DNA from: an uncultured Neisseria sp.
GTDB lineage: Bacteria > Pseudomonadota > Gammaproteobacteria > Burkholderiales > Neisseriaceae
Assembly: GCA_947097615.1 (NCBI GenBank)
Contig: CAMURX010000048.1
Span: 1 to 10,673 of the forward strand
DNA: 10,673 bases
Direction: 5' to 3'
Below, one piece after another: positions 603 through 6,541 of the stretch. The first letter of the stretch is position 1. The number at the start of each line of letters is the position of its first letter. Both the position numbers and the translations under genes were made by a program. The notes beneath the pieces are model-generated. The model had not been told where the DNA came from. It worked only from the letters and a program-made list of their open reading frames with translations, and searched no databases.

Positions 603-2222
603 ATGACCGTCCACACCTACGAACACAAATACCGCCTTGCCCAAGCCTTCGAGCGCCGCTGGAAAAACGAAAAGCGCGAAGAAGCCGAAGCCAAAACCTT
701 TTGGGACGAATTTTTCCGCATCTTCAACCTCGACCGCTACAAAACCGCCAGCCTCGAATACGCCGTCAAACACCACCGCCAGAAAACCACCAAATTTGCC
801 GACGTTTTCTGGGTAGGCAGGCTCTTGTGCGAACACAAATCCGCCAACAAAGACCTCGACAAAGCCTTTGCGCAGGCCGCAGGCTATGTGGACGAAATCC
901 GCCGCCACAATCCGGAAGACGTGCCGCGCCATGTCATCGTGTGCGACTTCGCCACCATGCGCCTTTACGATTTGCAGGCCGACACGCGCATCGATTTCCC
1001 GCTCGAAGACTTGCCCGAGCAGATTAAAAACCGCAATTTCGACTTTATGGACGGCATCGGCCGCGACCTCAAAGCCGCCGAAGAGCAGGCCAACATCGAA
1101 GCCGCCGATGCCGTGGGCAGCCTCTACCAAGCCTTTCGCGCCGATACCGCCTACAACGAACACGCCCTCAAACAATTCATCATCCGCCTTTTATTCTGCT
1201 TTTTCGCTGACGACACCCTGATTTTCGACAAAGGCCAGTTTGAAGACTACCTGCGCCGCCACACCAAAGAAGACGGCAGCGACACCGGCAGCACCCTCAA
1301 CCAAATCTTCCAAGTGCTCGACACCCCGCCCGACAAACGCCCCGCGCGCATGAACAGCGAGCTTAAAGCCTTTCCCCATGTCAACGGCAAACTGTTTGAA
1401 CACCAGATTGACGAATTTTATTTCGACGCCGAATTGCGCCAAAAGCTGCTCGAATGCTCGCAGCGCGACTGGGCGAAAATCAGCCCCGAAATCTTCGGCA
1501 GCCTGTTTCAAAGCGTGATGGACGGCAGCGAACGCCGCGCCGCCGGCGCGCACTACACCGAAGAAGCCAATATCTTAAAAGTCATCGACAGCCTGTTTAT
1601 GAACAGCCTGAGCGCCGAACTGGCCGCCGCACGCAAAAGCGGCAAAGCCCAACGCCGCAAGCTCGCGCAAGCGCTGCACGAAAAAATAGGCCGTCTGAAC
1701 TTCCTCGACCCCGCCTGCGGCTGCGGCAATTTTCTGGTCGTCGCCTACCGCGAACTGCGCCGCCTCGAAGACGAAATCATCGGCGAGCTTTTTGCCGAAA
1801 ACCAGCTGCTCGACATCGCCACCATGCAGCGCGTCCACATCGGCCAATTCCACGGCATCGAGCTGGACGAATACCCCGCCCAAATCGCCAAAGTCGCCAT
1901 GTGGCTCACCGACCACCAATGCAACCTCGCCACCGCCGAACGCTTCGGCACCACCCGCCCCACCATCCCGCTCACCGACAGCGCCGAAATCATCAACGCC
2001 AACGCATTGCACACCGAATGGCCGCAGGCCGATTACATCTTCGGCAACCCGCCGTTTATCGGAAAAGCCTACCAAAGTGCCGCGCAAAAAGCCGATATGG
2101 CCGCCATTGCAGGCCGTCTGAAAAACAGCGGCGTATTGGATTACGTATCCGCTTGGTATCTCAAAGCCGCCGACATCATGGAACATAGTCACCAGCAATC
2201 AATCACCCCCCCCCCCCGATAA
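603..2222 (+). CDS. MmeI-family Type IIL restriction-modification enzyme, 5' portion (phase-variable, off)
   Basis: This is the first 539 codons of a gene that really spans 603-3498. MmeI-type enzymes cut DNA about 20 bases from their site and methylate adenine on one strand, using a single polypeptide. Visible parts: an N-terminal nuclease motif D67-X9-E77-X-K79, the same D-X9-EXK spacing as MmeI; a helical spacer at about 160-310; GAHYTE (315-320, motif X); FLDPACGCGNFL (367-378, SAM-binding motif I); GNPPF (481-485, adenine N6-methyltransferase motif IV); then LDYVSAWYLKAADIM (512-526). The frame then enters 12 C at 2206-2217, picks up an arginine and stops at TAA 2220-2222. Later methyltransferase motifs and the whole recognition domain are lost, so the product should be inactive. 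With one C fewer the gene encodes 964 residues; MmeI itself is about 920. The start ATG follows AAGGGA at 7 nt or less. Internal DUS lie at 1688-1699 and 2111-2122. Family assignment is strong; the off state assumes the C count is right. Confidence 0.9.
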   Translation: MTVHTYEHKYRLAQAFERRWKNEKREEAEAKTFWDEFFRIFNLDRYKTASLEYAVKHHRQKTTKFADVFWVGRLLCEHKSANKDLDKAFAQAAGYVDEIRRHNPEDVPRHVIVCDFATMRLYDLQADTRIDFPLEDLPEQIKNRNFDFMDGIGRDLKAAEEQANIEAADAVGSLYQAFRADTAYNEHALKQFIIRLLFCFFADDTLIFDKGQFEDYLRRHTKEDGSDTGSTLNQIFQVLDTPPDKRPARMNSELKAFPHVNGKLFEHQIDEFYFDAELRQKLLECSQRDWAKISPEIFGSLFQSVMDGSERRAAGAHYTEEANILKVIDSLFMNSLSAELAAARKSGKAQRRKLAQALHEKIGRLNFLDPACGCGNFLVVAYRELRRLEDEIIGELFAENQLLDIATMQRVHIGQFHGIELDEYPAQIAKVAMWLTDHQCNLATAERFGTTRPTIPLTDSAEIINANALHTEWPQADYIFGNPPFIGKAYQSAAQKADMAAIAGRLKNSGVLDYVSAWYLKAADIMEHSHQQSITPPPR

Positions 2223-2251
2223 AAATTTACAATCCGAAATTCAGACGGCCT
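2111..2251. other. Two opposed DUS flanking the poly-C tract
   Basis: AGGCCGTCTGAA lies at 2111-2122 and its reverse, TTCAGACGGCCT, at 2240-2251, on either side of the C tract. Both are coding: the first reads AGRLK and the second IQTAF, inside the conserved methyltransferase. They could make this stretch a preferred substrate for uptake and allelic replacement. Confidence 0.8.
2206..2217 (+). repeat. Poly-C tract (C12), phase-variation switch
   Basis: Twelve consecutive C lie inside the restriction-modification gene, just where the two halves of its frame go out of register. With 11 C the codons read ACC CCC CCC CCC GAT and the halves join without a stop; 8 or 14 C would also work. With 12 C, as here, translation ends three bases past the tract. 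Long homopolymeric C or G tracts are the classic slipped-strand switch in Neisseria. The tract encodes a proline linker between methyltransferase motif IV and the later motifs. Confidence 0.87.
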
Positions 2252-3498
2252 TTGTTTCCACCAATTCCATCTGCCAGGGCGACCAAGCCGCCACCTTATG
2301 GCAGCCCCTGTTTGAACGCGGCATCCGCATACAGTTTGCCCACCAGACCTTCCAATGGCAGAACCAGGCCAAAGGCGTGGCTGCCGTGCACTGCATCATC
2401 GTCGGCTTCGCATTCAAACAGCCCGACAGCCCCACGCTGTTCCGCTATCCCGACATCAAAGGCGAAGCGCAGCCGCAGGCCGCCCGCAACATCAACGCCT
2501 ATCTGATTGATGCCGACAACGTTGCTATTGAAAAAAGCAACATTCAAATTACTAACGAAACTGGAATCTGCTTCGGCTCAATGCCCAACGATGGCGGCCA
2601 TCTGCTGCTTACACCCGAAGAAAAAACCGTCCTGCTCGAAGCCGAACCCTTGGCCAAGCAATACATCCGCCCCTTTCTCGGTGCGGAAGAATTTCTCAAC
2701 GGCAAACAACGCTGGTGCTTATGGTTTGACGGTTGCGATCTGGAACAGCTCAACCGTGATTTGAAAAAAATGCCGCAAGTGGCGCAGCGTATTGAAAAAG
2801 TGAAAACCGCACGTCAGGAAAGCAAACGTGCTGCCACCCAAAAACTCGCCGCCACCCCGCACCTGTTCGGCGAAATCCGCCAGCCCGCAAGCGGCAACTA
2901 TCTTGCCATTCCCGAGGTTTCATCAGAAAAACGCAACTACATTCCCATCGGCTTTCTCGACAGCAACAGCATTGTCAGCAACAAAATCTATACACTTAGC
3001 AGCCCCACGCCGCTTTACCATTTCGGGCTGCTAATGTCCGCCATGCACAACGCCTTTATGCGTACCGTGGCAGGCCGTCTCGAAAGCCGCTACCAATATT
3101 CGGCGGGCATCGTGTACAACAACTTCCCCTTCCCCTTTGCCGCGCAAACGCCGTCTGAAAGCAAAAACGGCAGCGCACCGCCCGCCGCCGAACAGAAAGC
3201 CCGTGCCAAAATCGAAGAGGCTGCACAAAAGGTGTTGGACGTGCGCGAACAATACCGCCAAGCCGCCGTCAAAAAAGGCAGCACGCCGCCCACCCTCGCC
3301 CAACTCTACAACCCCTACACCGTCCACCCCTATCCCGACCTGCTCAAAGCCCATCAGGCGCTGGACAAAGCCGTCGACGCCGCCTACGGCTACACCGGCA
3401 AAAACGACGACGCCGACCGCGTGGCATTCCTGTTTGATGTGTACCGGCAACACCAAACCGCCACCCCCGAAAAAAAACCGCGCAAAAAGGCCGTCTGA
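2218..3498 (+). CDS. MmeI-family Type IIL enzyme, 3' portion (out-of-frame continuation)
   Basis: This is the rest of the same gene, one base out of register with the upstream part and open from the C tract to TGA 3496-3498. In full-length numbering it begins at D539. It carries FVSTNSICQG (550-559), FAHQTFQW (578-585) and VHCIIVGF (595-602), which are conserved late methyltransferase segments of MmeI relatives. The target-recognition domain follows, with YLAIPEVSSEKRNYIPIGF, LYHFGLL and YNNFPFPF (from about 838), and then a charged helical C-terminus ending KPRKKAV. The first alternative start is GTG 2377, with ATG only at about 2581; neither has a convincing ribosome site. A separate product is therefore unlikely, and the segment is probably made only when the tract length restores the frame. 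Its last codons (GCC GTC TGA) lie inside an AG-DUS at 3488-3499. Stretches near 2505-2580 and 2930-3005 are visibly less GC-rich than the rest, as if the recognition domain had been exchanged. Confidence 0.88.
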   Translation, partial: DKNLQSEIQTAFVSTNSICQGDQAATLWQPLFERGIRIQFAHQTFQWQNQAKGVAAVHCIIVGFAFKQPDSPTLFRYPDIKGEAQPQAARNINAYLIDADNVAIEKSNIQITNETGICFGSMPNDGGHLLLTPEEKTVLLEAEPLAKQYIRPFLGAEEFLNGKQRWCLWFDGCDLEQLNRDLKKMPQVAQRIEKVKTARQESKRAATQKLAATPHLFGEIRQPASGNYLAIPEVSSEKRNYIPIGFLDSNSIVSNKIYTLSSPTPLYHFGLLMSAMHNAFMRTVAGRLESRYQYSAGIVYNNFPFPFAAQTPSESKNGSAPPAAEQKARAKIEEAAQKVLDVREQYRQAAVKKGSTPPTLAQLYNPYTVHPYPDLLKAHQALDKAVDAAYGYTGKNDDADRVAFLFDVYRQHQTATPEKKPRKKAV

Positions 3499-3950: not shown

Positions 3951-3988
3951 TTTCAGACGGCCTTTCGGCCGAGATCGGCCGTCTGAAA
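3951..3988 (-). terminator. Inverted DUS pair, ptsI terminator
   Basis: TTTCAGACGGCC (3951-3962) and GGCCGTCTGAAA (3977-3988) form a perfect 12-bp stem with a 14-nt loop. It begins 16 bases past the ptsI stop on the minus strand, the right place for an operon terminator. A further DUS at 4003-4014 overlaps the ptsI stop codon. Confidence 0.7.
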
Positions 3989-4003
3989 ACCGCAGACGGG
4001 GTT

Positions 4004-5755
4004 TCAGACGGCCTCTTCCTGGCCGTTGAGCTGTTTGAGCAGTTTGTCGGTTTTGTCGGGGTCTTCGTTGCGCAGGATGCGCAGGATGTCTTGTTCGAGG
4101 CGGTCGATGCTGCTGTGGATGACGATGTCTTTCACGGCCAGCAGGTTGTTGGTGTTCATGGAGAAGCTGCGCAGCCCCATGCCCAGCAGCAGGCGGGTGT
4201 AGAGGGTGTCGCCGGCCATTTCGCCGCAGAGGGAGACGGGTTTGTTCATGCGCTGGGCGGTGCGCAGGATGTGGGCGAGCAGGCGCAAAACGGCGGGGTG
4301 GGCGGGCTGGTAGAGGTAGCTGACGGCGTCGTCGCCGCGGTCGACGGAGAGGGTGTATTGGATGAGGTCGTTGGTGCCGATGGAGATGAAGTCGGCGTGT
4401 TTGAGCAGGCTGGACACGGTGAGGGCGGCGGAGGGGATTTCGATCATGCAGCCGGTCTGCACGCTGCCGAAGGTTTCGCCGCATTCGGTGAGCTGGCGGC
4501 GAGCGGTGTCGAGGTGGACGTGGCATTGTTTGAGTTCGGCCACAGAGCTGATCATCGGCCACATGATTTTGACGGGGCCGAGGGCAGCGGCGCGCAGGAT
4601 GGCGCGCATTTGGGTGCGGAACATGACGGGCTCGGCCATGCACAGGCGGATGCCGGTGAGGCCGAGGGCGGGGTTGAGGCTGCCGTTGGGCGTGCCGTTC
4701 TGGCCGAACCAGCGGGGGTTTTTGTCGACGCCCAGATCGACGGTGCGGATGGTGAGGGGTTTGCCTTTGAGTTTTTTGACGATGGCGGAATAAACGGCAA
4801 ACTGTTCTTCTTCGTCGGGCAGGGTGTCGCGGTTGAGGTAGAGGTATTCGCTGCGAAAGAGGCCGACGCCGTCGCCGCCGAGGGCGTGCAGGGCTTTGAT
4901 GTCGTCGGCGCCTTCGATGTTGGCCGAGAGTTCGATTTGGATGCCGTCGGTGGTGGCGGCGGCGGTTTTTTTCAGTTTGCCCAGTTCGCGCTGTTTGCTT
5001 TTGTAGGCGCGCAGGCGGCGGCGGTATTCGGCGATGACGAGGTCGTCGGGGTCGATGATGAGGACGCCGTTGATGCCGTCGACGATGACCCATTCGTGTT
5101 CGCTGATGAGGGCGCGGGCGTTGGAGAGGCCGATAACGGAGGGGATGTCGAGGCTGCGGCCAAGGATGGCAGTGTGGCTGGTGGGGCCACCGGCGTCGGT
5201 AACGAAGGCGGTGACGCGCTGTTCTTTAAATTGGACGGTGTCGGCGGGCGAGAGGTCGTGGGCGATGAGGATGGTGTCGTCGAGGAGGTTGGCGTCGAGG
5301 TTGAGCTCGTTGCCCGTGCCGATGAGGTTGTTGTGGATGCGCTCGGCCACTTGCAGCATGTCTTGTTTGCGCGCCCGCAGGTATTCGTCCCCGATGGCGT
5401 CAAACTGGGCCGCCAGGCGGTCGGTTTGGATTTTCAACGCCCATTCGGCGTTGATTTTCTGCTCTTCGATGATGTCGGCCGGTTCGCGCGACAGGGTGAC
5501 GTCGGTGAGCAGCATCAGGTGCAGGGAGATGAAGGCGCCCAGTTCGGTGGGGGCGTTTTCGGGAATGGTGCTGCGGATTTGTTCGAGCTGGCGGCGGGTG
5601 GTTTTCACGGCGGCCTCGTAGCGGGCGGTTTCGCCGTCGATTTCGTTTTCCGCCAGGTCATACTGCGGCACTTCTCCGCGTCCGCGCACCAAAAGATGGG
5701 CGCGGCCGATGGCGATGCCTTTGCCCGCCGCCACGCCGTGCAGCACGATGCCCAT
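4004..5755 (-). CDS. ptsI: PTS Enzyme I (phosphoenolpyruvate-protein phosphotransferase)
   Basis: Enzyme I takes phosphate from phosphoenolpyruvate and passes it to HPr, the first step of the phosphotransferase relay in the cytoplasm. The 583 residues match the usual length of about 575. GGPTSHTAI carries the phosphorylated histidine, H194. The C-terminal PEP-binding barrel shows GLFRSEYLY (R301), TIRTVDLG (R337), MIEIPSAAL (E439), GTNDLIQYTLSVDR and SLCGEMAGD with the acid-base cysteine C510. All expected catalytic residues are present. The ATG lies two bases after the ptsH stop, and its ribosome site (GGAGA) is within the last HPr codons, so the two are probably translationally coupled. The final codons GAG GCC GTC TGA lie in a DUS, giving the C-terminus EEAV. 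It is the last gene of the operon. Confidence 0.97.
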   Translation of the reverse strand: MGIVLHGVAAGKGIAIGRAHLLVRGRGEVPQYDLAENEIDGETARYEAAVKTTRRQLEQIRSTIPENAPTELGAFISLHLMLLTDVTLSREPADIIEEQKINAEWALKIQTDRLAAQFDAIGDEYLRARKQDMLQVAERIHNNLIGTGNELNLDANLLDDTILIAHDLSPADTVQFKEQRVTAFVTDAGGPTSHTAILGRSLDIPSVIGLSNARALISEHEWVIVDGINGVLIIDPDDLVIAEYRRRLRAYKSKQRELGKLKKTAAATTDGIQIELSANIEGADDIKALHALGGDGVGLFRSEYLYLNRDTLPDEEEQFAVYSAIVKKLKGKPLTIRTVDLGVDKNPRWFGQNGTPNGSLNPALGLTGIRLCMAEPVMFRTQMRAILRAAALGPVKIMWPMISSVAELKQCHVHLDTARRQLTECGETFGSVQTGCMIEIPSAALTVSSLLKHADFISIGTNDLIQYTLSVDRGDDAVSYLYQPAHPAVLRLLAHILRTAQRMNKPVSLCGEMAGDTLYTRLLLGMGLRSFSMNTNNLLAVKDIVIHSSIDRLEQDILRILRNEDPDKTDKLLKQLNGQEEAV

Positions 5756-5757
5756 GT

Positions 5758-6027
5758 TTATTCTCCTTCGCCGAAGTAGTCGTTAATCAGCGCGGTGAGC
5801 GCCTGCATGGCGGCCGCTTCGTCGGCGCCGTCGGTTTCCAACGTCACCATGCTGCCTTTGGCGGCGGCGAGCATCATCAGTCCCATAATGCTTTTGCCGT
5901 TGACGCGCTGCCCGTTGCGCGTTACCCAGACTTCGCAGGCAAACGGCGAGGCCGTCTGAACGAATTTGCTCGACGCACGGGCGTGCAGGCCGAGTTTGTT
6001 GATGATTTCGATGTCTTGTTTGAGCAT
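5758..6027 (-). CDS. ptsH: HPr phosphocarrier protein
   Basis: HPr shuttles phosphate from Enzyme I to EIIA proteins. The 89-residue protein has the standard fold signature: NKLGLHARAS with the phosphorylated H15, and NGKSIMGLMML with S46, the residue phosphorylated by HPr kinase in organisms that have HprK. Neisseria is known to encode HprK, but it is not in this window. The gene starts 13 bases after the EIIA stop and ends 2 bases before ptsI. An AG-DUS at 5949-5960 lies inside the coding region and reads VQTAS in this frame. In N. meningitidis HPr has been linked to the regulator CrgA and to virulence traits rather than sugar uptake; a similar role here is inference. Confidence 0.97.
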   Translation of the reverse strand: MLKQDIEIINKLGLHARASSKFVQTASPFACEVWVTRNGQRVNGKSIMGLMMLAAAKGSMVTLETDGADEAAAMQALTALINDYFGEGE

Positions 6028-6040
6028 GGTCTGGGATTTC

Positions 6041-6442
6041 CTATTCGGGGGCAGCGGTGAGGGCGATGATGCCGCTGACGGCCGCTTCGCGCACGGCTTC
6101 GGTAAAGGCGGCGAGGTCTTCAGCGGCGGCGGAATACTGCACGGCCTTCACCAGCATGGGGGCGTTGAGGCCGGTGAGGATGGCCACTTTCTGCGGCACG
6201 ACGAGGCGGCGGGCGGCGTTGCACGGCGTTGCGCCGAAGATGTCGGCCAACACCAGCGTGCCGTGCGGTGCGGCCGTGTCGGCCAGCTCGCGCTGCAGGC
6301 GGGCGATGACGTCTTCGTGGTCTTCGTCGGGCTCGACGCCGAGCAGGCGGATGTGGGCAGGGATTTCGGGGAAAAAATGACCGGCCAGCTCCGTGTAGGC
6401 GCGGCCGAGGGCTTGGTGAGTGACGATAACGATGCCTATCAT
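6041..6442 (-). CDS. PTS EIIA component, mannose family
   Basis: This 133-residue protein is a stand-alone mannose-type EIIA domain. It starts MIGIVIVTHQALG, where H9 sits at the phosphorylation site; the usual motif is THG, so Q10 is a small departure. It also shows LVLADIFGATPCNAA, the conserved core loop of the family, and NAPMLVKAV near the end. It would receive phosphate from HPr. No IIB, IIC or IID partner is present, so it probably acts as a regulatory phosphoacceptor, as in other beta-proteobacteria where EIIA-HPr-EI are clustered. It is the first gene of the operon, transcribed towards ptsH, with a 13-base gap. The ribosome site before its ATG is weak. It is sometimes annotated manX, but that name properly belongs to a IIAB fusion, so I leave the symbol blank. 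Confidence 0.9.
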   Translation of the reverse strand: MIGIVIVTHQALGRAYTELAGHFFPEIPAHIRLLGVEPDEDHEDVIARLQRELADTAAPHGTLVLADIFGATPCNAARRLVVPQKVAILTGLNAPMLVKAVQYSAAAEDLAAFTEAVREAAVSGIIALTAAPE

Positions 6443-6541
6443 GGTGTGTTCTGTTCTGCCGTCCTGTTTCGCTTCGCCGGAGCTTGGCTTTCACTCCGTT
6501 GAAGCCTCGCTTTCAGACGGCCTTGTTGTGTAAAAGGCGGC

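Follow-up and report, generated by a model that had tools for sequence, protein, structure and literature searches.

How a conserved restriction-modification gene comes to be read in two frames that meet at a run of cytosines, and whether this arrangement is a switch, an error or a ruin, is the question raised by this locus of an uncultured Neisseria sp. In the window, meaning the whole stretch of 10,673 nucleotides that was analysed, an MmeI-family (Type IIL) restriction-modification gene changes frame exactly at a C12 tract (2206-2217), which separates an upstream open reading frame, the N piece, from a downstream one, the C piece. The best explanation of the gene is phase-variable expression, ON or OFF, of a single-chain MmeI-type (Type IIL) enzyme through slippage in the tract, a reading to which we assign a probability of roughly 0.8. 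The features on which the argument draws are as follows, with the basis of each in brackets; P0008 and P0070 are related proteins and A1 a family alignment, all described below.

603..2222, plus strand: N piece, 539 amino acids, from ATG to TAA (open reading frame list; Pfam)
801..839, plus strand: nuclease motif D-X9-E-X-K, residues 67-79 (motif; alignment A1)
1707..1733, plus strand: methyltransferase motif DPACGCGNF, residues 369-377 (columns invariant in A1)
2043..2057, plus strand: methyltransferase motif GNPPF, residues 481-485 (columns invariant in A1)
2190..2232, plus strand: putative switch insert that holds the tract, P0008 residues 530-543 (alignment A1; gap in 5hr4; P0070)
2206..2217, plus strand: C12 tract, the point of the frame change (sequence reading; comparison with P0008)
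2218..3498, plus strand: C piece, 426 amino acids, in the next frame and up to its stop (Pfam; identical to P0008 residues 539-964)
2240..2249, minus strand: core of what we take to be the DNA uptake sequence, inside the coding sequence, 22 bases after the tract (motif match)
2512..3135, plus strand: target recognition domain MmeI_TRD, residues 99-306 of the C piece (Pfam, E=8.8e-71)

According to Pfam, the N piece contains the MmeI_N nuclease domain, the helical spacer (MmeI_hel) and about the first three quarters of the methyltransferase domain (MmeI_Mtase, profile positions 7-192), and the C piece contains the end of the methyltransferase domain (profile positions 189-258), the target recognition domain (MmeI_TRD) and the C-terminal domain (MmeI_C). 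The methyltransferase profile is covered by the N piece up to position 192 and by the C piece from position 189, so that the two pieces belong to a single gene that changes frame inside this domain. Type IIL enzymes recognise an asymmetric site, cut the DNA some way from it and methylate one strand. The order of parts typical of the MmeI family, namely spacer, methyltransferase, target recognition domain and C-terminal domain, is present in two frames in the window and in one frame in P0008, so the single open polypeptide of the family is missing from the window and is found in this near-identical protein. The motifs that the earlier note expected on both sides of the tract are in place: D-X9-EXK, in which E77 and K79 are invariant and D67 is kept in at least 90% of the 63 rows of A1, DPACGCGNF, which we take to be the AdoMet-binding motif, and GNPPF, presumably the catalytic motif, all in the N piece, together with MmeI_TRD and MmeI_C in the C piece. 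Neither piece has a stop besides its known end. In the 12-C state, TAA starts three bases past the tract and leaves a protein of 539 residues without the target recognition domain.

The tract is a simple repeat with a unit that is not a multiple of three, and it lies within the reading frame at the frame change. It is the one run of a single base of at least nine in the window, and a first-order Markov model of the window predicts 0.0009 C runs of at least 12, or 0.013 such runs of any base. When the codons of the N piece were shuffled synonymously, the longest run was 12 in 313 of 2000 shuffles, a length reached often because proline is here often written CCC, and run length alone is therefore weak evidence. 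Codon bias in these shuffles leaves two things unexplained, the match of the tract with the frame change and the proline-bearing insert; the strong evidence for the significance of C12 is positional and comparative.

The comparison depends above all on P0008, found by a search with an intact relative from Cardiobacterium hominis (L001), which is a natural protein of 964 amino acids from another sample (source code lgn), encoded on a contig of 3,516 bases. All 426 residues of the C piece recur unchanged in P0008 (residues 539-964), and before the frame change the N piece departs from P0008 at two positions (A49T and S309N); the remaining difference is the residue at the exit of the tract, where P0008 joins the N and C pieces as ...SITPPPDKNLQS.... 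Because both pieces match P0008 up to the prolines, the frame change lies in the tract itself and not in a neighbouring lesion. Judging from TPPPD in the protein, the tract of P0008 would be one C shorter. The earlier note had placed 12 C exactly at the frame change of an MmeI-family gene, which both the sequence and the comparison with P0008 bear out, and the restored protein of 964 residues that it predicted has the same length as this natural in-frame protein. P0008 matches all five MmeI Pfam domains and is homologous to MmeI (PDB 5hr4) over its full length (E=1.4e-242). The structure model of P0008 (mean pLDDT 87.8), which was used for the fold comparison instead of the separate pieces of the window, was matched first to 5hr4 by Foldseek against the PDB, at 44% identity and a TM of 0.91-0.92 on the target.

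The opposite form occurs in Kingella potus (Neisseriaceae). Its protein P0070, from an assembly with a longest contig of 1.37 Mb, consists of 542 amino acids and shares with the N piece 86% identity as well as the insert. Its last residues are ...LQSITPPPR, with the stop at the OFF position of the window; the length of its tract would follow from the TPPPR of the protein. At protein level, at which P0008 and P0070 were compared rather than as DNA, both predicted expression states occur in nature, ON in P0008 and OFF in the window and P0070. The case that every related isolate is ON, named earlier as the outcome that would speak against a switch, is contradicted at this level by Kingella potus, which is another species. 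Its DNA was not met in the genome collections searched, and because the downstream part of its gene was not recognised among the 120 C-piece matches listed, this copy may be damaged in other ways.

These two proteins also bear on the rival explanations. Should the frame change be an artefact of sequencing or assembly, the tract would be in frame in the cell and the gene constitutively on. Long C homopolymers are prone to sequencing error, which lends some weight to this account for a run of such length, as does the in-frame reading of the near-identical P0008. However, the same OFF ending is found in Kingella potus, in an assembly of its own with a 1.37-Mb contig, and even an in-frame run of about 12 would be of a length known from the phase-variable G tracts in a table for Neisseria, for example that of pglA with G 9-21 (PMC5953494); we consider an artefact unlikely.

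Under fixed inactivation, the gene would be a recently formed pseudogene that stays off for good, and P0008 would preserve the ancestral state. In favour of this account, the window and Kingella potus share the frame in which both are off, and breaks also occur in related genes of other genomes (in 6 of 85 sampled loci and also in genome G022). Such inactivation appears quite improbable in view of the N and C pieces, which are free of other stops, of the C piece, which equals the ON protein P0008 at all 426 residues, and of the N pieces of both species, which are open despite 14% divergence. Programmed or leaky frameshifting, or slippage in the transcript, would yield some full-length enzyme at 12 C and let the tract tune the dose, for which a long run and an intact downstream frame would be suitable, but the separate ON form P0008 makes it unnecessary; we give it a very slight chance.

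Phase variation by slippage in the tract, the preferred reading, has an observed base that consists of the tract, the frame change, the intact domains on both sides, the natural ON and OFF proteins and the insert in two species. This insert, 14 residues long and proline-bearing, is common to P0008 and P0070. It is absent from all 62 other rows of A1, which have no letter in these columns, A1 being composed of 63 of 300 proteins that we selected, mostly full length, without the longer-looped P0164, P0168 and P0175; in the alignment with MmeI 5hr4, a gap of 14 residues stands opposite the insert. Among the proteins compared, ITPPP occurs in P0008 and P0070 only. The length of the loop could be read in 270 of the 300 proteins and amounts to 21-28 residues in 242 and to at least 31 in 28, comprising P0008 and 27 of the 269 others, which carry different inserts; 24 of these 28 derive from the search with the C piece, which favours fragments. 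Many of the long loops look to us like inserted repetitive elements. As the other inserts of the family in this loop (27/269) carry no run, an insert there is not by itself the sign of a switch. At DNA level, the loop was readable in 65 of 85 loci and measures 63-72 bases in 54 and 84-201 bases in 11.

In the P0008 model, the insert is located at the end of the helix formed by residues 516-534 and in the loop before the strand 547-553, and the confidence is lowered there (pLDDT 68 for the block 531-540). A loop that accepts inserts is a fitting site for a switch: the ON enzyme should tolerate the insert, and the OFF product should lack the target recognition domain. The idea that no other site of the family takes up insertions as readily as this loop was considered and rejected, since other linkers do so more often. 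Insertions of at least eight residues are most frequent after residue 844 of P0008, with 70 rows, and after residue 476, with 52 rows, and those at 527, 528 and 545, among the best 15 positions, total 7 rows, in a count made on 287 aligned rows of 319 sequences that may underestimate rows split into separate domains.

The proposed mechanism would proceed from the 14-residue proline-bearing insert, with its poly-C tract, in this methyltransferase loop. Through slippage of the strands the tract would gain or lose one C, and translation would enter or leave the downstream frame, so that 12 C would give the OFF protein of 539 residues and the P0008-type state the full enzyme of 964 residues. The cell would presumably alternate between a restricting and methylating state and a permissive, unmethylated state, with slippage as the probable mechanism and a probably inert OFF product. 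The joint loss of restriction and modification put forward in the earlier note is what the anatomy of the protein leads one to expect, and the argument has already been published for Cj0031, an enzyme of Campylobacter jejuni. Because cutting and marking should go off together, such switching could let DNA into a naturally competent cell and spare it the risk of self-cutting that attends separate Type II enzymes. A role as a DNA barrier or as a phasevarion is plausible by analogy. Two clones that differ at one tract would permit a clean comparison by methylome, phage plating and transformation.

Several switched systems resemble this gene in part. Cj0031 (cj0031c) is a phase-variable Type IIG enzyme and likewise a single-chain nuclease-methyltransferase split in two by a homopolymer inside the reading frame, in its case poly-G; its OFF state is predicted to abolish both activities, and many of its homologues are without the tract (PMC4889913). 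It differs in size (1243 amino acids), in the position of its tract (base 2573 of 3732), and in that its methylation, transcript changes and phage restriction have been measured, whereas the gene of the window is known from sequence alone; MmeI has no occurrence in the main text of that paper (PMC4889913). JHP1272 of Helicobacter pylori (HP1353-HP1354), a Type IIG enzyme with two homopolymeric switches, is similar in that its first run, a C run that codes for prolines, is an ON/OFF switch, and its similarity to MmeI was pointed out by the authors (PMC3936762). The second tract of JHP1272 alters specificity via an extra recognition domain (PMC3936762), whereas a single tract, in the methyltransferase domain, is seen in the gene of the window.

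In Neisseria, the phase-variable restriction-modification systems listed are modA, modB and modD (Type III), a Type I S subunit and NMB2030, the last entered as restriction modification with a GCCGC repeat and no evidence (PMC5953494). Like them, the gene of the window would be a restriction-modification gene of this bacterial group that is switched by a repeat, but those with a type given in the available text, which excludes NMB2030, are Type III or Type I systems with separate subunits (PMC5953494). The main text of this phasome survey has no occurrence of MmeI (PMC5953494), and the available text of a survey of 115 meningococcal genes treats restriction-modification in general terms only (PMC5084427). 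A literature search on titles and abstract openings, with supplements and most subscription papers outside its scope, found no phase-variable MmeI-family gene in Neisseriaceae. Homopolymer-switched Type IIG enzymes are thus already known through Cj0031 and JHP1272, and no description of an MmeI-family case in Neisseriaceae appears to exist; with the gene of the window, the switched systems of this bacterial family would come to include a fused restriction-modification enzyme.

With regard to its surroundings, the gene is flanked in the window by mfd (1-511) and ptsI (4004-5755); where a single contig of a relative contains both, they are widely separated, for example in G006 (1.66 and 2.04 Mb). 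In a synteny comparison with six relatives, only the block 3977-6469, with ptsI, ptsH and the next PTS gene, was aligned, and as mfd lies elsewhere in these relatives, no empty site can be demonstrated. A plasmid search with the gene gave no match. The uptake core GCCGTCTGAA has 26 sites in the window, 21 of them as AGGCCGTCTGAA; five lie within the MmeI-family gene, including the one 22 bases past the tract.

Beyond the window, the N piece was matched in 8 of the 46 genomes of the genus-level group. One of these eight, genome G040, contains L035, a distant MmeI-family gene that has a G11 run (coding strand, 2869-2879) at a frame change of its own. Its N piece of 98 amino acids, which alone matched no Pfam family, is 55% identical over its first 71 residues to the counterpart L034; its C piece, in the next frame, has 890 amino acids, is 61% identical to L034 over 866 columns and has matches to each of the five MmeI domains, the one to MmeI_N beginning only at position 89. 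Unlike the tract of the window, this G11 sits in the N-terminal part of the gene. C or G runs of at least seven were not found in the counterparts L034 and L036. Runs of at least 11 C or G occur at two places in G040, one of which is the G11 of L035, and at none in 5 of the 14 genomes searched. Two unrelated tracts, at different places, split two MmeI subfamilies in this bacterial group.

Across the aligned stretches of 119 family loci, some of them genes fetched twice and many partial, there was no C or G run of at least nine, the G11 of L035 lying outside its aligned stretch. Under thresholds of our choice, 17 arrays in these loci have a repeat unit whose length is not a multiple of three. 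Single-base runs of 8 or 9 make up 14 of them, with C or G represented by C8 (L020) and G8 (L188) only, and the other three are GC x5, GGGAGAGGGGCCGG x2.7 in L126 and CTTGC x6 in L174. The longer-unit repeats of L126 and L174 both lie in the helix-strand loop. That of L174, on the coding strand from about 1197, is in frame and absent in the nearest relatives L191 (76%) and L192 (64%). In L126 (1186-1223), the 14-base unit, present 2.7 times, comes with a frame change in the loop, and because a further stop follows downstream, this locus may be a plain pseudogene. L188 has a frame change at its G8 (1132), near residue 504.

Frame changes were present in 6 of the 85 loci sampled at order, phylum and class level, with at most the best 30 TRD matches taken from each sample (L121, L126, L129, L152, L163 and L188); genomes with matches numbered 63/300, 51/398 and 38/369 in the three samples, respectively. 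A repeat is found at the break in L126 and L188, and near-duplicate sequence at the break of the gene of L152, which is the same as L002; a run of at least eight was not found in L121 and L129. In L002, an MmeI-family gene of a Neisseria MAG, the break lies between the methyltransferase and recognition domains, with near-duplicate segments at about 3990-4140.

It is a tentative and on the whole doubtful proposal that MmeI-type single-chain barriers repeatedly evolve slippage switches, often in the loop between 516-534 and 547-553, and that Type IIL phase variation is widespread and uncatalogued in proteobacteria. The proposal draws on the poly-C of the window and Kingella potus, L174 and L126 in the loop, and on L035 and L188 elsewhere. 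If the proposal is true, proteobacteria could admit or shut out foreign DNA by means of Type IIL phase variation, and if the recurrence of repeats holds, tract length would be worth reading in seemingly broken MmeI-type genes.

Two further observations were made on runs in related genomes. In L032, from genome G022, a C7 within the codons of the NPPF motif (coding strand, 2926-2932) is the site of a frame change, and in its relative L031 the run is interrupted at this position. In other Neisseriaceae genomes, C or G runs of 11, 11 and 13 lie near weak methyltransferase-domain matches in L075, L077 and L078, respectively.
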